From a virus, in the IMG/VR virus record IMGVR_UViG_3300044993_000245, positions 1 through 24,872 of that record: a stretch of DNA of 24,872 nt. The stretch is one strand, 5' to 3'. Positions 1,871 through 15,183 of the stretch are shown here, in pieces. Positions within the stretch are counted from its first letter, which is position 1. Each line of letters opens with the position of its first letter. The position numbers were made by a program, and so were the translations under genes. The notes under the pieces are model-generated. The model had not been told where the DNA came from. It saw nothing but the letters and a program-made list of their open reading frames with translations, and ran no database searches.

Positions 1871-2380
1871 CTACGCGCCGGAATCCTGTGCCTTGACCGC
1901 CTTCGCAAGTACTAAAGCAATCCGCCGCGCAATCTCCGTCTCGCTCGCCTCAGGCATGAGCGGAGCGCCGTCCCTGCCAGTCAGTTCGGACTTGTCCGCC
2001 AGCCCGAGATCGCGGGCGATAATGTTGGGATTCAGCAGGTCCGCCGCAGCGCCGGTGAACTTCTGCTCCCGGATAACCTGTTCCGCGGCCTGTACGACTT
2101 GGGAAAAACCTTCTCTTTTGCGGTAATCGTCCCACGACCTCCGGTCGATCCCGAGGAAAATACACAGCCCGCCAATGGTCATGGCGCGGAGCTTCGGTAC
2201 GGGTTCGACCTTGCTTTCGCCCTGGTATGATACAAGCCTGTACTCATACAGCGGGTTGTCTGCGGCCCATTCGAAATATTCGACGCAGGCGTCCCACAGG
2301 ATTTCGGGCGAGGCGAAAATCAGGTCGCGGCCGTGTTTTGTGCGGGCCTCCCAGAAGCGGTTTCCCTTGGGCGCGGCCAT
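1871..2380 (-). CDS. Terminase small subunit (P22/Sf6 gp3-type DNA packaging protein)
   Basis: The 169-aa product resembles the gp3 family of small terminase subunits along its whole length. Hallmarks are [10 protein letters not shown] and ASPEILW near the N-terminus, [13 protein letters not shown] and [11 protein letters not shown] in the middle, and the family signature around [19 protein letters not shown] before an acidic C-terminus. Small subunits form rings that recognise the phage packaging site and load the large terminase ATPase/nuclease. The ATG at 2380 lies two bases after the stop of the preceding gene. The large subunit, which usually follows directly, is not next to it here. Confidence 0.93.
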
Positions 2381-2730: not shown

Positions 2731-3213
2731 TCAAGTTTTCCGCGGGGGCAGGTCACGCCTGTCGGCCAGACCGTAATGCACGGCCAGCTCGTCCAGAGCC
2801 TCCCGGGCGCGCGGCCCGACATAATGCGGGCTCCAGCCGTAGCGGGCCGCTATATCCCTGAGCGTCATACCCTCGCCGCATAGAGACCTGATGATGATCG
2901 CACCGACTGGGCTGATTGCCGTAATGGCGCGGCGGACCCGCTCCTGTGCCTGACACTGCCTGTCGGTCAGCGTGTTCCGCGGGTATCCGCCCTGCACCCT
3001 CTCGCACATCTCTGCGGAGCGGCTCGCGCCGATGGTGAGGGCCTCCCAGTCCCGCCGGAACGTGCCGCCCGCAAGATGCTGATACGCCTGGATGATACCT
3101 TTTTTGAGCAGCAGATCGAGCGGGCTCTCGGCGCAGTTGTAGGCGTGGACGCCGGAATCCTGATCTGTCTGGCGGTATTCGAGGATCGCCGCGTTGCCGT
3201 CGCGTCCGGTCAT
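2731..3213 (-). CDS. DUF6456-like helix-turn-helix regulator (candidate late regulator)
   Basis: A GGAGG site six bases upstream supports the ATG at 3213. The 160-aa protein has the pattern DLLLKKGIIQAYQHLAGGTFRRDWE followed by a C-terminal helix-turn-helix (LCGEGMTLRDIAARYGW, then VGPRAREALDEL). This arrangement resembles the DUF6456 domain found in alphaproteobacterial chromosomes and phages and has a sigma-70 region 4-like feel. Its position just ahead of the terminator and the packaging genes fits a late-gene activator or antiterminator analogous to lambda Q. That function is inferred from position and fold. Confidence 0.7.
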   Translation of the reverse strand: MTGRDGNAAILEYRQTDQDSGVHAYNCAESPLDLLLKKGIIQAYQHLAGGTFRRDWEALTIGASRSAEMCERVQGGYPRNTLTDRQCQAQERVRRAITAISPVGAIIIRSLCGEGMTLRDIAARYGWSPHYVGPRAREALDELAVHYGLADRRDLPPRKT

Positions 3214-5022: not shown

Positions 5023-5134
5023 TACGGCCAATCGTCTGGCCTCCAGCCGTCGAGGGGAATAGTATTCTTTGCAAACCCATTGACTCTGAGGGTGTATAAC
5101 CTAAGCTGATTGTTCCGTAACAGGACGAATCGGC

Positions 5135-5427
5135 ATGAAGGAAATCACCAAGAAACCTAATAAAATCAGTGTATTAGCACCAAAATCGGGTGCAAAGGGA
5201 ATCGGCTCCGATCAATGGTCTTTGGACCTCGCGATTGAGACCGAACGAGATGTTCAGGGCATCGGAATGGGCGTTCTTTCGGACGGAACGCCCTATATCA
5301 ATCAGCGTGGCCTAGCGGCGCTCTGCGGCGTTCAGAACGCGCACATTGGCGCGGAGAGCTGCCACCTTCAATTGCGCAGTTGGCGATTGAGGCCATCGTG
5401 CCCGCACAGATTGAGCACAAGCCGTAA
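5135..5427 (+). pseudogene. Frame-broken gene (N-terminal and C-terminal pieces in different frames)
   Basis: The frame from ATG 5135 encodes a sensible N-terminus: a Lys-rich start, then SDQWSLDLAIETERDVQG and MGVLSDGTPYINQRGLAALCG. After about residue 72 it turns into Cys/Arg-rich nonsense. A second frame just downstream encodes ELPPSIAQLAIEAIVPAQIE and stops at 5425-5427, looking like the real C-terminus. The gene therefore carries a frameshift or internal deletion near 5345. I know the type as a chromosomal/phage hypothetical protein with a nucleic-acid-related flavour but cannot name it. Confidence 0.6.
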
Positions 5428-5580
5428 CTACTTCTTGGCTTTTGTGCTCTTAGGAGAGTGCGTTGCGGCTTTCGCCAGCTTGCGTAGCTTATCCTCAAAA
5501 GCGGCTTCGGATTCGTCCGCGCCAACTTCCTTCGCCGCCTGTTTGAAGCGGTCCGCTTGGGATTTCTCTTTCTGAGGCAC
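5428..5580 (-). CDS. Small conserved Lys-rich protein, 50 aa
   Basis: The frame with a GTG start at 5580 encodes PQKEKSQADRFKQAAKEVG, then ADESEAAFEDKLRKLAKA and a Lys-rich tail. I recall small proteins of this pattern (QxxxFxxAAxExGxDESExxFxxxLxKLAK) in proteobacterial genomes, often near DUF3800 genes. The start lies one base from the oppositely oriented DUF3800 ATG, leaving no room for separate ribosome sites, so this junction may not be original. The stop abuts the neighbouring pseudogene's TAA, tail to tail. Confidence 0.55.
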   Translation of the reverse strand: MPQKEKSQADRFKQAAKEVGADESEAAFEDKLRKLAKAATHSPKSTKAKK

Positions 5581-5581
5581 T

Positions 5582-5695
5582 ATGCACCTACTTTTTGTTG
5601 ATGAATCGGGGACTCCGCCAAAGCCGGATGTAAGGGGACAGCGATATTTCGTTGTCGGCGGCATAATCAAAGTGCCGCTGCGCGGTTGGGTATAG
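5582..5695 (+). pseudogene. DUF3800 protein, N-terminal fragment
   Basis: An ATG at 5582 opens 37 codons with MHLLFVDESGTPPKPD and RYFVVGGIIK. The DESG strand and YFVVGG are the hallmark N-terminus of DUF3800, an RNase H-like fold family common on mobile elements. The reading breaks off after about residue 32 and stops at 5693-5695. A full protein has well over 200 residues, so this is a remnant, probably cut when the downstream transposon or a deletion arrived. Confidence 0.7.
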
Positions 5696-5779
5696 CAGAC
5701 GCCGGGTGAGACCTTAGTCCCAACGTGCAATTTCGACGCACTCCCGGCGTAAGAATCATCTCATGAACGCTTTGGATTC
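5696..5779. other. Junction between DUF3800 fragment and IS1595 transposase
   Basis: No gene is visible here. The left end of the IS1595-type element should lie in this stretch, but I could not identify a matching terminal inverted repeat or target duplication with the right side (about 6774-6790). A 7-bp pair CGCCGGG/CCCGGCG (5701 and 5743) is present, with a long loop. Confidence 0.4.
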
Positions 5780-6721
5780 TCAAGCTTTCTGACAAGCTGG
5801 GTTATATTTCAGCCGCTTACCGACGATCCCTGCGAGCGCGCGGGTAGCGCGCTGAGCATCGCTCACGCCCAAGGATTCGCGCTCGTTATAGCGGAAATCA
5901 AATTCGGCCAGATAACGCTTCAAGTGCTGTTGGCTGACATGATGGAACGTGCCGGTTATGCCGCGCTTGAGAACCGAGAAATAGCCTTCCACGGTGTTGG
6001 TATGGGCTTCGCCGCGCACATACTCGCCAATGCCGTGGTTCACGACCTCATGGGCAAAGTCCTTGTGCATGTGGCGGTACTGGCCTGCATCGTCGGTCAT
6101 AAGGAACGTCTTGGCGTCGAGTTGAGCGACAAGGATAGGACGCAGCGTCTTGGCGGTGACGCTCGGCACATGATGCGAGCGGACGCGGCCATTGCGTTCC
6201 ACTAGGGAGAATACGATCTCCTTGCCCATGCCGCCGATGTTCTTGCTGTTGTGCTTGGAGCGGTGCTTGTTGGTTTCCTTGCCGCCGATATAGGTTTCGT
6301 CGGCTTCCACGAATTTGCCTTCGCCGCCCATCGGTTCGATGTGCAGAACGCGCATGGCCTCGCGGAGCCGGTGCGCCATGAACCATGCGGTTTTGTAGGT
6401 CACGCCCAACGTGCGGTGAAGCTGATGGGCGCTGATGCCCTTCTTGGACGAAGCCATGAGATAGGCAGCCTGAAACCACAGATTCAGTTTGACGTTGGAC
6501 GCCTCAAAAACGGTGCCGACTTTGACCGTGAACTGTTTACGGCAATCGCCGCACTTGTGAAGGCCAAGGCGCACCCGCTTCTCAGGGTTCGCCTTGATGC
6601 TGTAAATCCTACCCATGCAGCCACAGTGCGGGCATACCGGGCCTTCCGGCCAGATGATGGCTTCCAACTTAGCGTAAGTTGCCGCTTCATCGTGAAAGTA
6701 TGCTTTGGATAGAATGGACAT
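5780..6721 (-). CDS. IS1595-family (ISXO2-like) transposase
   Basis: The 313-aa product is full length for the family. The N-terminus has a zinc ribbon (CPHCG ... CGDCRKQF) followed by the DDE-type catalytic domain: FVEADETYIGGKE holds the first Asp, LMTDDAGQYR the second, and AHTNTVEGYFSVLKRGI the downstream N/E region typical of ISXO2-like enzymes. It ends RYNERESLG and a basic tail. The start is fixed by AAGGAG eight bases before ATG 6721, and a promoter is visible upstream. The transposase appears intact, although the element's ends could not be delimited. It has interrupted the phage gene order between an HTH remnant and a DUF3800 remnant. Confidence 0.93.
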   Translation of the reverse strand: MSILSKAYFHDEAATYAKLEAIIWPEGPVCPHCGCMGRIYSIKANPEKRVRLGLHKCGDCRKQFTVKVGTVFEASNVKLNLWFQAAYLMASSKKGISAHQLHRTLGVTYKTAWFMAHRLREAMRVLHIEPMGGEGKFVEADETYIGGKETNKHRSKHNSKNIGGMGKEIVFSLVERNGRVRSHHVPSVTAKTLRPILVAQLDAKTFLMTDDAGQYRHMHKDFAHEVVNHGIGEYVRGEAHTNTVEGYFSVLKRGITGTFHHVSQQHLKRYLAEFDFRYNERESLGVSDAQRATRALAGIVGKRLKYNPACQKA

Positions 6722-6968: not shown

Positions 6969-7214
6969 CAAGCCCCTGTACGGCATCGGCTGCTCCGGCC
7001 CGCGCGGCAGCCGGGCTCGCTCTCGGGCCTCGTTGATCTTGATCGCCACAATCCGCGCGCCCTCCGCAGTGCTTGGCGGCCATTCTGCGGCAACCGTCAT
7101 GCGATCGGAAAAAAACGTAGCCCCGAACTCGCGCGCGAGCCAGCCGCGCCACGCATCCCACTGCTTTTCACCCTTGACCACGACCCACAACCCGCCGTTT
7201 CCCTCAATCGCCAT
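6966..7214 (-). CDS. Hypothetical phage protein, 82 aa
   Basis: The ATG at 7214 lies inside the end of the DUF1376 gene (11-base out-of-frame overlap), so it is probably translated by coupling. The product has a Trp-rich N-terminal half (GGLWVVVKGEKQWDAWRGWL) and a basic, Pro-containing end (RARLPRGPEQPMPYRGL). No family is recognised. Its conserved context downstream of a DUF1376 gene suggests a replication-associated accessory role, which is inference. Confidence 0.65.
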   Translation of the reverse strand: MAIEGNGGLWVVVKGEKQWDAWRGWLAREFGATFFSDRMTVAAEWPPSTAEGARIVAIKINEARERARLPRGPEQPMPYRGL

Positions 7215-7986
7215 CCCGTGCCTCCACCATCCCGGCCCTTGCGGCCGCCTCGATTTCCCTGAGCCTTGCCAGATCGGGGTCGATAGGCGAGGCCCGCGCG
7301 CCGTTGAAGCCGTCAAACCGGCGTTGAGAGATAAACCGCTCGGCATGGACCGGCCTGTAATCCGGGTGCTTGCGGCAGTGCTCGCGGAAAGCCGGGATCG
7401 CAGCGCGGGCCGCGTCCCTGTCCTCATCCGGTAGCCGCTTCCATGCCTCGAAGGCCTTTTTCTTGCTCATCAGCGGATCGGTTGGGTAGTCCCGCCAGAA
7501 AGCCTCGAACTCTGGCGGGTACGGAGCCCTCTTGGGCTTCGTACAAGAATCTTCTTTTTCTTCTTCGTTAGAAGAAGAATGTGGTTGTGGTTGTGGTTGC
7601 GTGCGCACTGCGTCCGGACTGCGCCCGGACTGCGTGCGCTGTGCGTCCGGACTGCGTCCGGACTGCGTGCGCTGTGCGTTCGCTCTGCGAGCACCAAGCG
7701 CCCGCTTTTCGTAAAGCTCGTTGGCCTTTGAAATCTCGGCGTCTATCCTGGGATGCCGCCAACCGGCGTCAAAAAACTCGGCCACAGTATCGCGGATTGC
7801 CGCCCACTCCTGCGGAGCGCAACGGGCTATTCGGGCGAGCTTGGCGTCGTCATCGGGCAGGCTGCCGGCCCGCCAATAGTGCATGATAAGCAGCAGATAT
7901 GCCCCGTGTTCCGTCGCCGTCAGGTGGGCCGTGTCGGCGAGATAATCGCCAATATAGAGGGGCATGAAATGTTTTGGACCGCTCAT
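7204..7986 (-). CDS. DUF1376 protein (phage replisome organiser-like)
   Basis: The N-terminus is a textbook DUF1376 domain, a winged-helix-like fold of phage replication proteins: FMPLYIGDYLADTAHLTATE, then YLLLIMHYWRAGSLPDDD and FFDAGWRHPRID (residues 7-85). A low-complexity linker follows (two 11-residue repeats, QPQPQPH, an acidic Ser/Glu stretch), then a C-terminal helical domain (FEAFWRDYPTDPLMSKKKAFEAWKR) like those of phage proteins that recruit the helicase. It probably marks the origin or loads the host helicase, as inferred from the family. A second initiation-type set (Prim-Pol, DnaA-like domain) is encoded further right. Confidence 0.85.
   Translation of the reverse strand: MSGPKHFMPLYIGDYLADTAHLTATEHGAYLLLIMHYWRAGSLPDDDAKLARIARCAPQEWAAIRDTVAEFFDAGWRHPRIDAEISKANELYEKRALGARRANAQRTQSGRSPDAQRTQSGRSPDAVRTQPQPQPHSSSNEEEKEDSCTKPKRAPYPPEFEAFWRDYPTDPLMSKKKAFEAWKRLPDEDRDAARAAIPAFREHCRKHPDYRPVHAERFISQRRFDGFNGARASPIDPDLARLREIEAAARAGMVEARDGD
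7610..7675. repeat. Tandem 33-bp repeat (11-bp subunits) inside the DUF1376 gene
   Basis: Two 33-bp units, each built of three related 11-mers such as GCGTCCGGACT, lie in tandem and encode the duplicated linker peptide QRTQSGRSPDA. Because 33 is divisible by three, unit changes would keep the reading frame. Confidence 0.85.
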
Positions 7987-8049: not shown

Positions 8050-8805
8050 GTGAATCGAACTCAGCGCTGCTCTCGCTTGGTTCGCGGCCCGGCAGCCTCG
8101 CAATCTGCCGGGCCTTTTTTATACGCTATCCACGTTGGGCGGGCAAGTCTGGACAAGCCGTGGCAGATTCCCATTTTCATAGCCCCGCTCGTGCCGGTTT
8201 TTCCGGACATATACCAAGCAATTTCATCAAACCTTGTGGGCACCCTAGTCAATTGGACCCTAGCGAAGTTCGGCGGGAGACCGAAGGAGGCCGAAATGTT
8301 TAAAGAAATTGCCGATAAGGCGATTGAGTCAAGCGAGCGAACATCTAAACACGCTATTTCGGAGATGCGGCGGCTGGCTGAAAGCGTGGTTGATGCTCAG
8401 AGGCCAGCAGCAAAGAAACTCGTGAAGCCGGTTGGAGAAACGTGCGAGACGCTTAGGATTGGCGACAGCCCGGAGTCCATAGAAGTTGATCGGCCAATGA
8501 AAGACACAATTTCCGAGGACGGAAACATCGAGACTTTGGACGAACGAAACTATGTTGTTTTGTTCTCTGAGTTAGACCGGCGGAACAAGACGGGCAAGCT
8601 TTCAATTAAAGACGATCCTCAGCCACAAAGGCGTTACTCCTCAGTTATCACCGATCCGAAAATAGATGAGATAGACAATATCTACGCAGAGTCTTTGAGC
8701 GCAGAGAAGTGGATCACTGTTCGCGGAAAGATGCAGATCAAAGATAATGAACCTTATCGCATCTACATTTCAGCCGGGGCGGCGGGATCGGCTAAAATTG
8801 CCTGA
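8050..8805 (+). CDS. 5'-truncated hypothetical gene (authentic part from about 8130)
   Basis: The frame is open from an ATG at 8050, but the first part overlaps a terminator hairpin and reads as unrelated sequence. Plausible protein begins around residue 28 (KPWQIPIFIAPLVPVFPDIY). It continues with a hydrophobic segment, a charged helical region (MFKEIADKAIESSERTSK), then alternating beta-type sequence ending in YRIYISAGAAGSAKIA. The composition is AT-richer and the codon use differs from the flanking phage genes, suggesting foreign origin. The arrangement recalls DUF7946-like proteins, but this is a weak resemblance. I treat it as a C-terminal portion whose original start was lost. Confidence 0.5.
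   Translation: MNRTQRCSRLVRGPAASQSAGPFLYAIHVGRASLDKPWQIPIFIAPLVPVFPDIYQAISSNLVGTLVNWTLAKFGGRPKEAEMFKEIADKAIESSERTSKHAISEMRRLAESVVDAQRPAAKKLVKPVGETCETLRIGDSPESIEVDRPMKDTISEDGNIETLDERNYVVLFSELDRRNKTGKLSIKDDPQPQRRYSSVITDPKIDEIDNIYAESLSAEKWITVRGKMQIKDNEPYRIYISAGAAGSAKIA
8086..8120 (+). terminator. Rho-independent terminator, plus strand
   Basis: A perfect 10-bp stem (GGCCCGGCAG / CTGCCGGGCC) with a 9-base loop is followed directly by six T residues on the plus strand. No plus-strand gene ends just upstream. It may be left from a lost gene or shield the minus-strand DUF1376 transcript. Confidence 0.85.
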
Positions 8806-8811
8806 TAAGCT

Positions 8812-9147
8812 TTAGTCCGCCAACTGAGCAATATCCTCTAGCGTCCAGACGGTATCCGCAATACCCGCCTGCATGGCCGGGGTGACGCGAAGCGACTTAT
8901 GGATTTTTGCAAAATTGTAGAACATGAAATGCAGGGCCACGGCGTGGGCGTGGTTCTCGACCTTCTTTGAGAAGCCGTTGGTCAGGCGCGTGAACCGGCG
9001 CATGTGCATCCGCATGGTGAGGTTCTGGCGCTCAACGTAGGACGTGGAGACATGCGCCCGGTCAGGATTGCCCGTCACCCGTTCCTTGCGCGCACCCTTG
9101 CAGATGGCCGGGCTATAGCGGCTATGAACCTTATGCTTGACCGTCAA
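8812..9147 (-). pseudogene. IS1-type transposase, C-terminal fragment
   Basis: The 111-residue frame carries the conserved C-terminal block of IS1-like transposases: HVSTSYVERQNLTMRMHMRR, FTRLTNGFSKKVENHAHAVA and HKSLRVTPAMQAG. It includes the final catalytic Glu in YVERQ. The N-terminal HTH and the two upstream Asp residues are missing, and the 5' side runs into another gene at about 9140. It is therefore a remnant that cannot transpose. Confidence 0.85.
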
Positions 9148-9622: not shown

Positions 9623-9689
9623 GGAGGTGTGGCAGAGCGGTCGAATGCAGCGGTCTTTAAAACCGCCGGACTGTGCAGGTCTCGTGGGT
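9623..9689 (+). tRNA. 3'-truncated tRNA (Ser-like type II) with UUA anticodon
   Basis: The acceptor 5' strand GGAGGTG, T8-G9, a D-arm (GCA ... TGC), A26 and a perfect 5-bp anticodon stem (GCGGT/ACCGC) around the 7-base loop CTTTAAA are all present. Positions 34-36 read TTA, which would pair with the UAA stop codon. A variable arm (GGAC ... GTCT) and the 5' side of the T stem (GTGGG) follow. The sequence then switches into the 64-bp promoter repeat, so the T-loop, the 3' T stem and the acceptor partner are missing. The body resembles bacterial tRNA-Ser(UGA), whose loop would be CTTGAAA. It cannot be functional as it stands. Confidence 0.65.
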
Positions 9690-9752
9690 AATATGTGCTG
9701 TTTATCCGCGCATGTCAACGAGAAATATAAACAATCCACACCCGAAATGACT
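9689..9752. repeat. 64-bp direct repeat, copy B
   Basis: This copy is 62/64 identical to 4959-5022 and in the same orientation. It starts inside the T-arm of the tRNA fragment and is followed at 9753 by a remnant of a DUF551 gene end. Confidence 0.9.
9690..9718 (-). promoter_or_regulatory. Second copy of the minus-strand promoter
   Basis: TTGACA (9718-9713), a 17-base spacer and CATATT (9695-9690) are fully conserved with the promoter at 4960-4988, as are the flanking TGTTTAT/ATAAACA half-sites. It would transcribe antisense through the tRNA fragment towards the 93-aa gene. Confidence 0.6.
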
Positions 9753-10814: not shown

Positions 10815-10837
10815 AACTCATACAGGCTGTATGAGTT
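10815..10837. promoter_or_regulatory. Perfect palindrome with 1-base centre
   Basis: AACTCATACAG and its exact complement flank a single G. The last base overlaps the stop codon of the minus-strand gene at 10837. On the minus strand it is followed only by TTTG, so it could be a weak terminator or a dimer-binding operator. Confidence 0.6.
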
Positions 10838-11196
10838 CAAACATCCATCCAGCGGCCCTGATTGAGCCACGTGGCGAGCTGCGGAATATACTTGCCGTCG
10901 TCGCGCCACAGTCCCGGAGCGCCGCGCACGGGGTTTCTCTGGCTTGCAAGATAGGCTTTGACGCCCTCGGCGATTTCCTCATGGGTCGCCTTCAAATCAA
11001 TCGTGATGTACTCGCCTGAGTCCCTGTCCAGCGTCCGCGTCGTCAGGCCCCGCCCGATGATCGCGCGGTACTTCGCGAGCGCGATGGCCTTTTTGACCCG
11101 GCGATGTGCGGGCCATGGCATCCATATATCGGCGTCAAACCTCGCCGCCGGATCAAAACCGGGCTCAGCAATCGGCAGGCGCAGGACGTTGGTCAT
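10837..11196 (-). CDS. Replication-associated hypothetical protein, 119 aa
   Basis: The ATG at 11196 lies in the AGGGGATCGTGA-ATGAC junction shared with other genes of this operon. The C-terminus IPQLATWLNQGRWMDV matches the recurrent end of many phage replication proteins (PxTWLxxgRW). The central helix HRRVKKAIALAKYRAIIG is basic. Placement directly downstream of the Prim-Pol gene supports a helper function in replication, for example helicase recruitment. This is inferred from the tail motif and context. Confidence 0.65.
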   Translation of the reverse strand: MTNVLRLPIAEPGFDPAARFDADIWMPWPAHRRVKKAIALAKYRAIIGRGLTTRTLDRDSGEYITIDLKATHEEIAEGVKAYLASQRNPVRGAPGLWRDDGKYIPQLATWLNQGRWMDV

Positions 11197-11206
11197 TCAC
11201 GATCCC

Positions 11207-12037
11207 CTATCTTGGTTTTTCTTTCCCGGCTCTCAAGCCGGATGCAATTGTCTTTTCGGCCTCAACATAAGGCAGGCCGATGCTCGCCGAGGCGGCCAGC
11301 AGGCGACGACGCGCATCCGCCTCTCCGATCATGCCTGCCGCCACGAACTGCCCAAAAACGAAGGCCGCCTTGTTGAGCGCGTGGTTCCGGCCGCCTTCTC
11401 CGGTAGCACGAAGCTCGCGCTCTTCCATGTCGAGGATACGTGGGGAGGGCTTGTCTGGTGTGCGCCCCGCGCTCCTGCGAATTGCAGCAGGGTTGGGCAG
11501 CCGTTCGGCGCTGGCCTTCTGGCGTAGCCATTCCGGCATTGGTGCCGGGATTACGATGCCATCGTGGTTCCATGCGTCCGGCGCGTTGATCCACTCGTAT
11601 CTGCCGTGTTCCGTCTCGCTCGGCGGCGCGATTATTGCGCCTCCATTTGATCGGATGTCGAGGCCGGGTGCAATCATACCGGCGCGGTTTTTGGTCGCTA
11701 CATTGGGCTGGATGAAATAGTAATGGAGGCCGCCCCTCGCGCTCCGTGCCATCACTGTGGGGGCGAATCTCTCAAACCCCATCGACCATATGCGGTCGAG
11801 GCTTTCCAGGCCTGCCGGGTTATCGACATCCAAAACGCAAATACCGTTTATGTCCCCGCAAGCGACCGCTATATTGGCGTTCGGAAACTCATCGCTCCAG
11901 GCGTCTATTTGATCCGGGTCGCGGCTGGCAGCATGACAGCCACCGGCAATACAAGGCACCTTGTTGCGTGACACAGGAAAAACAGCCCAGCCGTATTTTT
12001 GAAGGTATGGCGCTGCTTTTTCCGAAAATTTCGTCAC
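11207..12037 (-). CDS. Bifunctional primase/polymerase (Prim-Pol domain)
   Basis: A GTG start at 12037 in the coupled TGAGTGAC junction gives 276 aa. The N-terminal 180 residues show the Prim-Pol (AEP-type) motifs: GWAVFPV, the metal-binding VLDVDNPAG, SARGGLHYYF, and GLDIRSNGGAIIAPPSE. A linker and a C-terminal helical domain (NHALNKAAFVFGQFVAAGMI ... LPYVEAEKTIASGL) resemble the primase C-terminal region. It should synthesise primers at the phage fork. No fused helicase is present, so it probably works with the host helicase or one encoded outside the window. Confidence 0.9.
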   Translation of the reverse strand: MTKFSEKAAPYLQKYGWAVFPVSRNKVPCIAGGCHAASRDPDQIDAWSDEFPNANIAVACGDINGICVLDVDNPAGLESLDRIWSMGFERFAPTVMARSARGGLHYYFIQPNVATKNRAGMIAPGLDIRSNGGAIIAPPSETEHGRYEWINAPDAWNHDGIVIPAPMPEWLRQKASAERLPNPAAIRRSAGRTPDKPSPRILDMEERELRATGEGGRNHALNKAAFVFGQFVAAGMIGEADARRRLLAASASIGLPYVEAEKTIASGLRAGKEKPR

Positions 12038-12339
12038 TCAGGATCCCCTATCGGATTAGGTGCACAACGCCCGTCGGCATCCGTTACATCAGCCGCTTCC
12101 GATGTAAGGGCGAGAATGGCGTTGGCGCATTCGTCTGCACCGTCGGACTTTCCCTCGGTATACGTGCTGCCTTTTAGCCCCGCGCGCCACTCTCTGTTCC
12201 ACTCGTCAGCGAGCCTCAGCGCTTCCGTCGCAGCTGCCTTGAGCGCGATGTCGATGACTGCCGATGCCTGGTCCTTGCACACGGCACATAGCGCGCGGCC
12301 AACAGCTTCAATCAGCTCGCTCCGCTTATCATTGCTCAT
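12034..12339 (-). CDS. Hypothetical protein, 101 aa
   Basis: The ATG at 12339 follows AAAAGGAG and the stop overlaps the Prim-Pol GTG. The protein is helical and Ala/Glu-rich (ELIEAVGRALCAVCKDQASA, then ATEALRLADEWNREW) and ends in NPIGDPE, a tail nearly identical to that of the neighbouring DnaA-like gene because both stops lie in the same repeated junction sequence. No family is recognised. Confidence 0.65.
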   Translation of the reverse strand: MSNDKRSELIEAVGRALCAVCKDQASAVIDIALKAAATEALRLADEWNREWRAGLKGSTYTEGKSDGADECANAILALTSEAADVTDADGRCAPNPIGDPE

Positions 12340-12363: not shown

Positions 12364-12651
12364 CTATTCAGGCTCCCCTATCGGATAGAGATGCGGCCTC
12401 GCCTCGACGGCCCGGACCGCGTCTATTACAGTCGTGTGGTGCCGCCCGAAAATCCGCGCGATCTGAGGATAGCTTTTGCCGGTCTTGATCCGCGCGAGAT
12501 ACATCGCGGCATTCCGCGGGCGGGAATATTTCCGCGCCAGCCCCGGCCCGTAAATATCGGCAACGTCTATGCCGCTACGCTCGGCCACGTCGCGGACGAT
12601 GTTTCTGACCGTCGGAGCAGGATTGCCGGGATGTGTGTCGATGTCGGTCAT
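12364..12651 (-). CDS. Stand-alone DnaA domain IV (DNA-binding) protein, 95 aa
   Basis: A strong AGGAGG site six bases upstream fixes the ATG at 12651. The product corresponds to the DnaA C-terminal DNA-binding domain: VRDVAERSGIDVADIYG, then RNAAMYLARIKTGKSYPQIA and the signature GRHHTTVIDAVRAVEA that reads the DnaA box. No ATPase domain precedes it. It may bind DnaA boxes at the phage or host origin or promoters and compete with or mimic host DnaA. Solo domain IV proteins occur in alphaproteobacterial phages; the function here is inferred. Confidence 0.9.
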   Translation of the reverse strand: MTDIDTHPGNPAPTVRNIVRDVAERSGIDVADIYGPGLARKYSRPRNAAMYLARIKTGKSYPQIARIFGRHHTTVIDAVRAVEARPHLYPIGEPE

Positions 12652-13166
12652 ACGTGCCTCCTGAAATCGACGGGCCGTGGCGCTCCGGCATCCGGATCGG
12701 GGATGAAATCCTTGCGGCGGCACAAAGCCCGATGCTCGGCGCAATACGGACTTTCCCCGTCTTTCTCGCGGGCGCAGAAATGAAACCCGGCGTCACCAGT
12801 ATCACCATGCGGGTATCTGCATTGCCGGGCATGGAGAGTCGCCACCGCGTCCGGGATGCCAACGCCGCGACCCCGGAGGAATGGCGTCTCAGGCTCGGGC
12901 GGAAGTTGTGGCGCATTGGCAGGTGGGGATGCTTTTGCGTTGGTCACGCGCCGGGCGGGTGGTTTAATCGCTCGTGGCATAGATGGGATAGGCTCGCCAT
13001 CCCGCCTATCGTGGTAGACCGTATCGCGCGGCGGCAGCCCGAGGCGATGGACTTTGCCGATAATGGCGTTGCGTGACCGGCCCATGATTCTGCCGATGAC
13101 ACTCGCGCTTCCACCCTCAGTCCAAAGTGCGGTCAGCCGCTTGATGGATTCCGCGTCCCAACTCAT
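12648..13166 (-). CDS. gcrA: GcrA-family cell cycle regulator, 172 aa
   Basis: The N-terminus is diagnostic: SWDAESIKRLTALWTEG followed by SASVIGRIMG and RSRNAIIGKVHRLGL, the GcrA helix-turn-helix. A Pro-rich linker leads to the conserved C-terminal Cys cluster (CRYPHGDTGDAGFHFCAREK ... YCAEHRALC). In Caulobacter GcrA binds sigma-70 RNA polymerase and activates promoters carrying CcrM-methylated GANTC sites. Both the DNA-binding and polymerase-binding regions seem present. Start and stop overlap neighbouring genes by four bases, so it is an integral operon member. Confidence 0.93.
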   Translation of the reverse strand: MSWDAESIKRLTALWTEGGSASVIGRIMGRSRNAIIGKVHRLGLPPRDTVYHDRRDGEPIPSMPRAIKPPARRVTNAKASPPANAPQLPPEPETPFLRGRGVGIPDAVATLHARQCRYPHGDTGDAGFHFCAREKDGESPYCAEHRALCRRKDFIPDPDAGAPRPVDFRRHV

Positions 13167-13324
13167 GACAGCGCCCTCTTTATGCGCGCATACATCCGCC
13201 GGGCGGTCAGGGCGGGTCTCATCTCCTCAAGCAGCCTTGCCGTCGTGGCGCGGCGGGCAGCCTTGGCCGCTTCATGCTGGCCGCGAGTGTCGCCGCGTTC
13301 GCGGGCTTGTTCATACGGGGTCAT
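13163..13324 (-). CDS. Small basic protein, 53 aa
   Basis: An AGGAGG site six bases upstream supports the ATG at 13324, and the TGA overlaps the GcrA start (ATGA). The product is a basic, Ala/Arg-rich helix (TPYEQARERGDTRGQHEA, then RRATTARLLEEM). The coupling on both sides makes it a real gene despite its size. It may bind nucleic acid, but no family is recognised. Confidence 0.7.
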   Translation of the reverse strand: MTPYEQARERGDTRGQHEAAKAARRATTARLLEEMRPALTARRMYARIKRALS

Positions 13325-13325
13325 G

Positions 13326-13667
13326 TCAAGCCTCCTTGATCTGGATGCCCGCGCGCCGCAGCGTCTCTCGCGCGTCGTCGATGGACCTGCATACAGCCGT
13401 ATGGACGCCGCAGGCGTTGAGTTGTGCCATCATTTCCCGCTGTTCCGGCCGGGCGTATTGGCCCTCTTTCTTGACCTCGATTGCGACCGTGCGGATCGGG
13501 TGAAAAACCAGAACATCGGGGAAGCCTTTCTTGGCACCCATTGCTTTTTGCATCGCGCCCGCGACCCTGGACCGTGGGTTGTTGGCGACGTGGACCACAA
13601 GCGACGGCTGCGGCAAGACGGCCTCAAGCCATGATACAATCGACCGTTGGATCGCAGCCTCGTTCAT
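13326..13667 (-). CDS. VRR-NUC domain nuclease, 113 aa
   Basis: The protein has the PD-(D/E)XK-type VRR-NUC core: an N-terminal EAAIQRSIVSWLEAV, then KGFPDVLVF with the catalytic Asp, AIEVKKEGQYARPEQREMM with the E-x-K pair, and LNACGVHTAVCRSIDDA. Stand-alone phage VRR-NUC proteins are predicted structure-specific or junction endonucleases acting in replication and recombination. It overlaps the upstream gene by four bases. Confidence in the family is high; the substrate is inferred. Confidence 0.9.
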   Translation of the reverse strand: MNEAAIQRSIVSWLEAVLPQPSLVVHVANNPRSRVAGAMQKAMGAKKGFPDVLVFHPIRTVAIEVKKEGQYARPEQREMMAQLNACGVHTAVCRSIDDARETLRRAGIQIKEA

Positions 13668-13900
13668 TTGCCGCCGTCCATTTTGACAAGCTCGATCTCG
13701 TATCCCAGTGCGGCGAAAAAAGCATCCATATCGGCGAGCGCCTTGCCGTAGTGCCGCGCTATCTCGCTGCCGCGCGAGCGCTTCTTGAATACGGCTTCGC
13801 TTAGGCTCGTTATGTTGGTCCCGTGCTCGCGGGGCAGGCTGTACATCGCGTCGGTCAGCCAGTGGCCTGTCTTGCGGTATCCGGGCTTGTGGTCAATCAC
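13664..13900 (-). CDS. Hypothetical protein, 78 aa
   Basis: The frame overlaps genes on both sides (four and eight bases), typical of this operon. It encodes HWLTDAMYSLPREHGTNITS followed by a basic helix (KKRSRGSEIARHYGKALADM) and a hydrophobic end FFAALGYEIELVKM. No known domain is visible, though the charged first half could bind DNA. Confidence 0.6.
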   Translation of the reverse strand: MIDHKPGYRKTGHWLTDAMYSLPREHGTNITSLSEAVFKKRSRGSEIARHYGKALADMDAFFAALGYEIELVKMDGGK

Positions 13901-14111
13901 GACGCCTGTCCCTGTCGTTCACGATGCCTTCCAGCCGGGCGACGATGTAGCCCGCGGCCTCGTCGGATTCGCGGATGGCGCGGGCTTGGCGAAGGCACAT
14001 ACAATCTTGCCCAAGCTCGCAGACACTAGAGATGGATGTGTCGTTTTGCCATATTGTACATGTATAATCCGCTATTACGCGGGCGCGGCGCTCGTCTATC
14101 TCATCAGTCAT
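13893..14111 (-). CDS. Hypothetical protein with Cys motif, 72 aa
   Basis: The product carries TCTIWQ, SSVCELGQDCMCLRQARAIR and an acidic C-terminal helix. The four Cys residues could bind a metal, but their spacing fits no family I know. It overlaps both neighbours, supporting translation as part of the operon. Confidence 0.55.
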   Translation of the reverse strand: MTDEIDERRARVIADYTCTIWQNDTSISSVCELGQDCMCLRQARAIRESDEAAGYIVARLEGIVNDRDRRRD

Positions 14112-14364
14112 CCGGATTCCCCTTGAGCCGGTAGCCCTTTCCCCAAACGGTTTCTATGGTCAGGCCGGTTCCGGCCAGCTTTTTCCGGAGCGCCGAAATC
14201 TTGACGGGGATGACCGCATCGCCGGGCCTCACAGCCGCGTCCGCGTATACCTCGTCGCCGATGACATATTTCGATTTCGGTGGTTCGCCGTCGCGCGGCA
14301 GTGCGTCGATGATGCGGCGCTCCAGCGGGGTCAGCGGCGCCGTGATTTCTGGGCTCTCAGTCAT
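14104..14364 (-). CDS. OmpR/PhoB-type winged-helix protein (CtrA-like DNA-binding domain), 86 aa
   Basis: The ATG at 14364 with AGAGGA upstream is preferred to the longer frame from 14412. The whole protein is one Trans_reg_C winged helix: LTPLERRIIDALPRDGE, then VIGDEVYADAAV, the recognition helix PVKISALRKKLAGTGL and the wing IETVWGKGYRLKG. There is no receiver domain, so it cannot be controlled by phosphorylation in the usual way. The recognition helix and wing (LRKKLA, IETVWG-GY-L) resemble CtrA and other OmpR proteins. It may act on the divergent promoter region or on host promoters. Confidence 0.85.
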   Translation of the reverse strand: MTESPEITAPLTPLERRIIDALPRDGEPPKSKYVIGDEVYADAAVRPGDAVIPVKISALRKKLAGTGLTIETVWGKGYRLKGNPDD

Positions 14365-14467
14365 CGTCGATCCTCTCAGGTCGGGGAGGCGGTACGCAGC
14401 GGATGGACACACTATCCGCCTCCCCTGCCCGCTGCACCAAGGGGGATGGCGCGGCGGGGTTAGTCAT
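14357..14467 (-). CDS. 36-aa coupled small ORF
   Basis: Its ATG overlaps the stop of the Cro-like gene (ATGA), and its own stop overlaps the winged-helix start by eight bases. The peptide is MTNPAAPSPLVQRAGEADSV followed by a Pro/Arg/Asp-rich end. It may exist mainly to couple translation of the two regulators. Confidence 0.55.
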   Translation of the reverse strand: MTNPAAPSPLVQRAGEADSVSIRCVPPPRPERIDDD

Positions 14468-14661
14468 GCATTCGGCTCCGGCCCGTAAATATCGGGCCTC
14501 AGCTTGTGGCGCGATACGCCAGTGATTTTTTCGACCTCAAGCACGCGCTCGGCGGGCACTCGCCGCCATTGCGAAATCGAGCTCGGGTAAAGATTGAGTT
14601 GAGCGGCGAGGGCAGATCGCCGCCCGCGTTCGCCATCCAGCCATTTGGTCAGGTGTTTCAT
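14464..14661 (-). CDS. Cro/YdaS-like HTH regulator, 65 aa
   Basis: The product has the YdaS/Cro pattern: HLTKWLDGERGRRSALAAQL, then NLYPSSISQWRR as the turn and recognition helix, VPAERVLEVEKITGVSRHKL and the family ending RPDIYG. An alternative ATG four codons upstream (14673) cannot be excluded; neither start has a strong ribosome site, which may mean a leaderless or short-leader mRNA. It is the first gene of the leftward operon and faces the divergent intergenic region, so it probably represses one or both promoters. No CI-like partner is seen. Confidence 0.82.
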   Translation of the reverse strand: MKHLTKWLDGERGRRSALAAQLNLYPSSISQWRRVPAERVLEVEKITGVSRHKLRPDIYGPEPNA

Positions 14662-14710
14662 GCCGCCCATCATACCGCGGAAAAAAATTCACGCAACATG
14701 AAAATAGCGG

Positions 14711-14763: not shown

Positions 14764-15183
14764 ATGATGAGCAACATTCAAATCACGTCGCGCCTTTCGG
14801 GTGCTGTTATTTTTGAAACCGAGATCGCGGCGGAATACGAAGGCTATACTTTCGGCTTCCGGCTCGGGCTGGCGGTGAAGGCGGCTTACAACAGCGGTGC
14901 CGACCTGAGCGATGCCGACCTGAGCGATGCCGACCTGAGCGATGCCAAAATCATCCGCGTCATTGCGCGCGCCACTCGCCTCGACGGCTACGAGTTTATC
15001 GCTTTCGACACCGACAAGGGCATCATCATCCGGGCCGGTTGCCGGACCATGAGCCCGGACGATTATCGCGCTCATGTTGCGCGCGGATACCACGGCACGG
15101 ACAAGGCCGAAGAAACGCTCGCCATCCTCGACTACATCGAGGCGCGGGCCGCGAAGCTCTGCTGGGCAGATGTGTCGGCATGA
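14764..15183 (+). CDS. Phage pentapeptide-type repeat protein, 139 aa
   Basis: ATG 14764 (or 14767) is preceded by GGGAG. The N-terminal 45 residues lead into a short pentapeptide run ADLSDADLSDADLSDA, then a conserved globular part (TRLDGYEFIAFDTDKGIIIR, then AGCRTM and DYRAHVARGYHG, ending ETLAILDYIEARAA). I recall longer relatives with many more pentapeptides, so this copy seems contracted. Pentapeptide repeats form a beta-helix, and some mimic DNA, but three units are too few for a helix of that kind. It is the first gene of the plus operon. Confidence 0.75.
   Translation: MMSNIQITSRLSGAVIFETEIAAEYEGYTFGFRLGLAVKAAYNSGADLSDADLSDADLSDAKIIRVIARATRLDGYEFIAFDTDKGIIIRAGCRTMSPDDYRAHVARGYHGTDKAEETLAILDYIEARAAKLCWADVSA
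14896..14946 (+). repeat. 15-bp tandem repeat, three copies
   Basis: Three copies of GATGCCGACCTGAGC (the first with one mismatch) plus a partial fourth encode the pentapeptides. The near-identity at DNA level implies recent expansion or contraction by slippage. Confidence 0.9.

Follow-up and report, generated by a model that had tools for sequence, protein, structure and literature searches.

Three host-type DNA-binding modules in the early operon of a temperate alphaproteobacterial phage, and a tentative reading as a gene-expression switch

The operon and its surroundings

The window, as we call the whole stretch of DNA that was analysed, is a linear IMG/VR record of 24,872 b and is a fragment of a viral genome. 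A minus-strand block running from 14673 to 10837, with a Cro-like gene first, encodes a winged helix, GcrA and a DnaA domain IV (Table 1). All three scored above their Pfam cut-offs: 37.5 bits against 26.2 for Trans_reg_C, 94.1 against 26.9 for GcrA and 69.7 against 31.5 for Bac_DnaA_C. The Cro gene is separated by a gap of 99 nt from the remaining genes of the operon. The spacing across the ten genes from the winged helix to position 10837 is only -8 to +24 nt, and these genes are therefore taken to be coupled. This bears out an earlier note, made from the sequence alone, which had placed a DnaA domain IV, a full GcrA and an OmpR-type winged helix without a receiver in one coupled operon headed by Cro. 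The same note had remarked that the parts subject to control by ATP or phosphate were missing, and this is also correct, as Pfam finds no AAA+ domain with the DnaA domain IV and no receiver with the winged helix.

Table 1 Features of the window (positions in the 24,872-b record)
Feature	Positions	Strand	Evidence or remark
Cro-like (YdaS/P22 Cro) repressor, operon head	14464..14673	-	PF15943 E=5e-13; P22_Cro E=1e-5
Receiverless OmpR-type winged helix, CtrA-side phage family	14104..14364	-	PF00486 37.5 bits
72-aa protein, coupled	13893..14111	-	no Pfam/PHROGs match; spacing -8 nt
78-aa protein, coupled	13664..13900	-	no Pfam/PHROGs match; spacing -8 nt
VRR-NUC nuclease	13326..13667	-	PF08774 E=1e-8
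53-aa ORF, coupled	13163..13324	-	spacing +1/-4 nt
Full-length GcrA, DNA-binding and sigma-interaction domains	12648..13166	-	PF07750 94.1 bits
Stand-alone DnaA domain IV, GafY/HdaB-like architecture	12364..12651	-	PF08299 69.7 bits; ATGA overlap with gcrA
101-aa protein	12034..12339	-	no Pfam/PHROGs match; spacing +24 nt
Prim-Pol DNA primase/polymerase	11207..12037	-	PF09250 E=8e-38
Replication-initiation-like protein, end of coupled block	10837..11196	-	phrog_270 E=5e-9
64-nt promoter-like repeat, copy 1	9689..9752	-	TTGACA-17-CATATT; 97% identical to copy 2
DUF1376 phage replication protein	7204..7986	-	PF07120 E=2e-25
64-nt promoter-like repeat, copy 2, upstream of DUF6456 and packaging segment	4959..5022	-	97% identical to copy 1
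DUF6456 sigma-region-4-like protein (GafZ type)	2731..3213	-	PF20057 E=3e-10
gp3-type DNA-packaging protein (small terminase type)	1871..2380	-	PF16677 E=3e-26

To the right of the operon lie genes for NinB, YqaJ, ERF and SSB, and to its left those for DUF1376, an IS1595 transposase, DUF6456 and the gp3-type packaging protein. This layout is ordinary for a temperate phage. Among 385 genomes of the class to which a Caulobacter genome (G001) belongs, the best match to the YqaJ protein was 42% identical. The stretch that separates the operon from the DUF6456 region holds an IS1595-family transposase gene (5780-6721) and the remnant of an IS1-type transposase (8812-9147), and the element may therefore have decayed in part. 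No tRNA genes were found in the window, and no CI-type repressor was recognised by eye in the ORF divergent from cro. That ORF contains three tandem copies of a 15-nt repeat (14893-14946), giving an ADLSDADLSD pentapeptide-like stretch.

The three DNA-binding modules

The GcrA match covers positions 1-147 of the 155 in the Pfam profile, and the protein aligns end to end with the solved GcrA structure (PDB 7ye1, E=4e-22). As the recognition motif RNAIIGKVHRLGL and residues C116, C131, C142 and H145 are retained, this GcrA is probably active. The family assignments of the earlier note hold for all three modules. The GcrA is well below the equivalog model for the host cell-cycle protein, NF050816 (89.8 bits against a cut-off of 280). 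In a tree it forms a long branch beside the copies from the phage loci L021, L054 and L046 (SH-aLRT 80). GcrA relatives are encoded in 253 viral contigs and were present in 22 of 27 loci that had been selected solely for a related YqaJ gene. GcrA is therefore ordinary in phages of this group, and phage GcrA either has several origins or moves back and forth. A phage-encoded member of the family, gp222 of phiCbK, was reported in 2012 (PMC3556154).

The DnaA-like ORF is 95 aa long; PF08299 is the sole family above cut-off and AAA+ domain III is absent. Its AlphaFold model resembles DnaA domain IV on DnaA-box DNA (1j1v) with a TM score of 0.77. When the sequence was aligned to 1j1v, the residues R399, D433, H434 and T435, whose roles in reading the DnaA box are taken from published work (PMC5742627, PMC5043019), were found to be L, H, H and T in the window. 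GafA likewise lacks R399 (PMC9638019). The window sequence lies on a long branch of the DnaA-IV tree, and its placement gave AU p values of 0.14 with GafY and 0.07 with DnaA. The NCBIfam PRK06030 models for small hypothetical DnaA-like proteins scored 18-20 bits, against cut-offs of 136-181. A scan with the single protein found no viral relatives.

A second, short Bac_DnaA_C gene beside dnaA was present in 17 of the 20 host genomes sampled, and at 8 of 9 loci examined the host stand-alone DnaA-IV gene is adjoined by a DUF6456 gene. These neighbours are the published gafY-gafZ pair (PMC9632790, PMC9638019). GafY (CCNA_01111), for which HdaB is another name, is a homologue of DnaA domain IV and activates gene-transfer-agent genes (PMC9632790, PMC9638019); it binds RpoD (PMC11150451). 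Rhodobacter GafA unites both partners, with a DnaA-like N-terminal region and a DUF6456/sigma-like C-terminal region (PMC9632790, PMC11150451, PMC9638019). Given the loss of R399 and D433, and the closer fit of GafY as a precedent, we rejected the view that the protein of the window is a piece of DnaA which competes at oriC.

The DUF6456 gene of the window is just upstream of the packaging gene and 9 kb from the DnaA-IV gene. The relative L093 also has DUF6456, and in both L093 and the window Cro is followed in turn by DnaA-IV, DUF6456 and the terminase region. The DnaA-IV gene overlaps or precedes a DUF1376 gene in L021 and L035. In another phage locus (L017:7712-8673) the DnaA-IV gene is followed directly by a DUF6456 gene, which is the gafY-gafZ order.

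The winged-helix ORF (86 aa) consists of Trans_reg_C alone, the receiver domain with its phospho-acceptor being absent, and its AlphaFold model resembles OmpR/PhoB winged helices with Z scores of about 9-10. The earlier note had likened its wing to CtrA. In a tree, 25 of 27 phage winged helices, including that of the window, fell on the CtrA branch (99/98), which separates them from the 40 remaining response-regulator domains of hosts. A profile built from phage winged helices only (seven rows, three of them, L012, L013 and L014, strongly CtrA-like) had CtrA as its top match in 20 of 20 host genomes. We take these host proteins to be CtrA by comparison with the CtrA of C. crescentus, to which the top matches were 75-97% identical and the rest below 40%. 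For the window sequence taken alone the likeness is weak: it is on a long branch, its placement among other response regulators was not rejected (AU p=0.31), the phmmer comparison gave 21.2 against 18.2 bits, and the NCBIfam models tied. It has diverged in the CtrA recognition helix KIIDVFICKLRKKL, matching 8 of 14 residues. Thus the likeness to CtrA is real for the phage family and weak for this member. The receiverless winged helix of another phage locus (L330:3674-4039) has a recognition helix identical to that of CtrA (14/14) and is a candidate constitutive binder of CtrA sites.

Co-occurrence in related phages and candidate sites

Among 121 non-redundant viral loci, DUF6456 was present in 5 of the 15 with DnaA-IV and in 6 of the 106 others (odds ratio 8.3, p=0.004). 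When only loci not picked for these genes were counted, the figures were 3/3 and 3/45 (p=0.001). Most of the co-occurrence counts cover stretches of 20 kb or less. Besides the window, one further phage lineage (L012, L014 and L087) has all three modules. The trio to which the earlier note drew attention does recur, therefore, but pairing of DnaA-IV with GcrA in the viral loci was not significant (p=0.28). GcrA and the winged helix showed no significant excess together, in a table that is confounded by locus selection. Neighbouring genes are GcrA and DnaA-IV in L035 and L054, the winged helix and GcrA in L012, L014, L087 and L037, and DnaA-IV and the winged helix in L011; by a rough estimate the number of such pairs is not clearly beyond chance.

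No CcrM-type methylase was seen among the scanned ORFs of the window, in agreement with the earlier note; as the record is a linear 24,872-b fragment, this applies to the fragment only. In three loci of related phages (L021:13867-14883, L054:9715-10599 and L084:12741-13595), N6/N4 methylases that partially match CcrM are found close to GcrA and DnaA-IV.

The window contains no strict DnaA boxes and no full CtrA sites, and its relaxed DnaA boxes and CtrA half sites are not enriched over expectation. Of sixteen comparable pentamers, none is as strongly depleted as GANTC (42 observed against 91 expected), which is likewise depleted in the alphaproteobacterial host loci tested; the depletion fits a CcrM-bearing host. 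Clusters of GANTC occur at 5082-5874, on the border of the IS1595 element, and at 8052-8689, in the DUF7946/7947 gene. Both stretches are of lower GC content and look like recent insertions.

The two 64-nt promoter-like repeats, both of the TTGACA-17-CATATT type, are flanked by TGTTTAT/ATAAACA arms and precede the segments leading to DUF6456 and packaging. The repeat was not found in the other loci examined, nor its pattern in viral contigs. The two copies are candidate targets of the proteins encoded by the phage. GANTC is lacking in both copies and in the Cro promoter region, so GcrA may act on host promoters instead. A palindrome-like sequence, GGCCCGTAAATATCGGGCC, is found inside cro (14480-14498) and has a second copy, with 3 mismatches, within the DnaA-IV gene (12545-12563), where 0.03 such matches would be expected by chance. 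The pair is possibly an intragenic operator or a coding coincidence, as DIYGP occurs in both proteins.

A phage switch and its alternatives

In alphaproteobacterial hosts, small sigma70-directed activators serve the cell cycle as well as gene transfer agents. We tentatively propose that the regulatory core of this temperate phage is a gene-expression switch assembled from that kit, a reading which we judge the most likely one, though it is perhaps slightly more easily wrong than right. Cro would gate the early operon. After derepression, the DnaA-IV and DUF6456 proteins would activate replication and packaging genes in the manner of GafY, the winged helix would bind its own sites without phosphorylation and GcrA would dock on host sigma70 at GANTC promoters. 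Together, GcrA, DnaA-IV, the winged helix and DUF6456 would steer the sigma70 polymerase of the host onto phage genes. The expression of phage genes would then be most or all of what the switch is for; side effects on the replication genes of the host, above all through GcrA, are plausible but secondary. We infer all of these binding and regulatory steps from sequence. The switch is favoured by the domain scores, by the pairing of DnaA-IV with DUF6456 at 8 of 9 host loci and by the association of the same two genes in phages. The binding of GafY to RpoD, the gene order shared with L093, the receiverless CtrA that adjoins a DUF6456-like gene in RDJL Phi 1 or is fused to one in RDJL3 and RcSalem, and the residues retained in GcrA with its alignment to the solved structure also speak for it. 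Against it, the two genes are 9 kb apart in the window rather than adjacent, the DnaA-IV tree gives AU p values of 0.14 and 0.07 for its two placements, the PRK06030 scores are far below cut-off, DnaA-IV often has DUF1376 or another replication gene as its neighbour (L021, L035), consistent with a role in replication, and GcrA may not act at the Cro promoter or the repeats, from which GANTC is missing.

The evidence favours capture of the host cell cycle no more than it does such a switch. In the capture reading, which was that of the earlier note, the phage supplies GcrA and unregulated DNA-binding halves of DnaA and CtrA and so forces the host into a replication-permissive state. All three module types are coupled in one operon and this is repeated in a second lineage, and the GcrA of phiCbK has been proposed to alter the replication state of its host (PMC3556154). 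According to a citation in PMC9632790, overexpression of GafY/HdaB inhibits division and changes copy number at some loci. Several phage winged helices have a nearly perfect CtrA recognition helix (14/14 in L330 and 13/14 in RcSalem), and with GANTC scarce in the window and lacking in the Cro promoter, the targets of GcrA may be on the host; in this respect the idea stays alive for GcrA. However, the DnaA-IV and winged helix of the window have lost residues for reading DnaA boxes and CtrA sites that the proposed competition would need. Moreover, the co-occurrence of DnaA-IV with GcrA does not exceed chance, GafY is argued not to act on oriC replication (PMC9632790) and this fragment has no CcrM. 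The oscillator reading of the earlier note is thus supported only in part: its three modules are present and recurrent, but stand-alone DnaA-IV of the GafY/HdaB type is ordinary in hosts. Effects of the operon on the host cell cycle are possible; capture of the cycle by the phage seems decidedly unlikely. A variant, in which the phages carry a recurring decoy of the circuit (a constitutive binder of CtrA sites, GcrA, DnaA-IV and, in relatives, a CcrM-like methylase) whose early co-expression would override host replication timing, is very unlikely.

Two readings dispense with a joint circuit. The DnaA-IV could be the origin-binding part of the phage's own replication initiator, with DUF1376, Prim-Pol or DnaB-type genes as its partners; the winged helix and GcrA would then be separate regulators. 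Its contact with DUF1376 in L021 and L035 agrees with this, as do its position two genes from Prim-Pol, the DUF1376 gene on the same strand and the likeness of its model to domain IV on DnaA-box DNA. The association with DUF6456 in phages and hosts, the lack of any strict DnaA box in the window, with relaxed ones no more frequent than expected, and the loss of R399 and D433 all argue the other way, and we consider an initiator unlikely. It is only somewhat unlikely that the operon is an accident of mosaicism, in which common regulators of alphaproteobacterial phages with separate jobs came together in one early operon by chance. GcrA is very common in these phages, DnaA-IV and winged helices are recurrent, the co-occurrence of GcrA with either is not raised and all three proteins of the window are on long branches. 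The point against such an accident is that neighbouring pairs recur in several unrelated contigs, in a number that is not significant by the rough estimate.

Each of the three kinds of module is already known singly in alphaproteobacterial phages. The modules of the window have the same DNA-binding folds as host DnaA, GcrA and CtrA, but lack the AAA+ and receiver domains of DnaA and CtrA and are changed in key DNA-reading residues of the DnaA-IV and the CtrA-side helix. Among the closest known systems are also the GafY/HdaB-GafZ pair of Caulobacter and the GafA of Rhodobacter: the window has a stand-alone DnaA-IV of similar size and, near its packaging gene, a DUF6456 protein that may be the partner; it differs in that the two genes are not adjacent and that the DnaA-IV gene is surrounded by phage replication genes, GcrA and the CtrA-side winged helix. 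Like the window, phiCbK encodes a GcrA-family protein, but it is a large phage of another kind, and the portion of its report consulted mentions no DnaA-IV or receiverless CtrA alongside (PMC3556154).

The operon joins three literatures that rarely meet, on phage GcrA, on receiverless phage CtrA and on the way in which GafY and GafZ control gene transfer agents. Its content suggests that alphaproteobacteria and phages exchange a single pool of regulators, to which those of the cell cycle and of gene transfer agents both belong. The comparison also singles out phages suited to testing whether a constitutive binder of CtrA sites and a phage GcrA control the replication of the host.

A receiverless CtrA beside GafA had already been noted in RDJL Phi 1 (Fogg 2019, PMC6363796). 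RDJL Phi 1 and Phi 2 (HM151342, KT266805) share with the window a CtrA-type winged helix without a receiver and a DUF6456-like regulator, and in the RDJL Phi 1 record the two genes adjoin. Unlike the window, the records of RDJL Phi 1, RDJL3 and RcSalem were found to contain no GcrA and no Bac_DnaA_C, and their recognition helices are much closer to that of CtrA. In RDJL3 (L435:7650-8489) and RcSalem (L437:4713-5318) the CtrA-type winged helix is fused to DUF6456/GafZ-like segments, and the RcSalem-type fused gene has matches in 21 Rhodobacter phage records.
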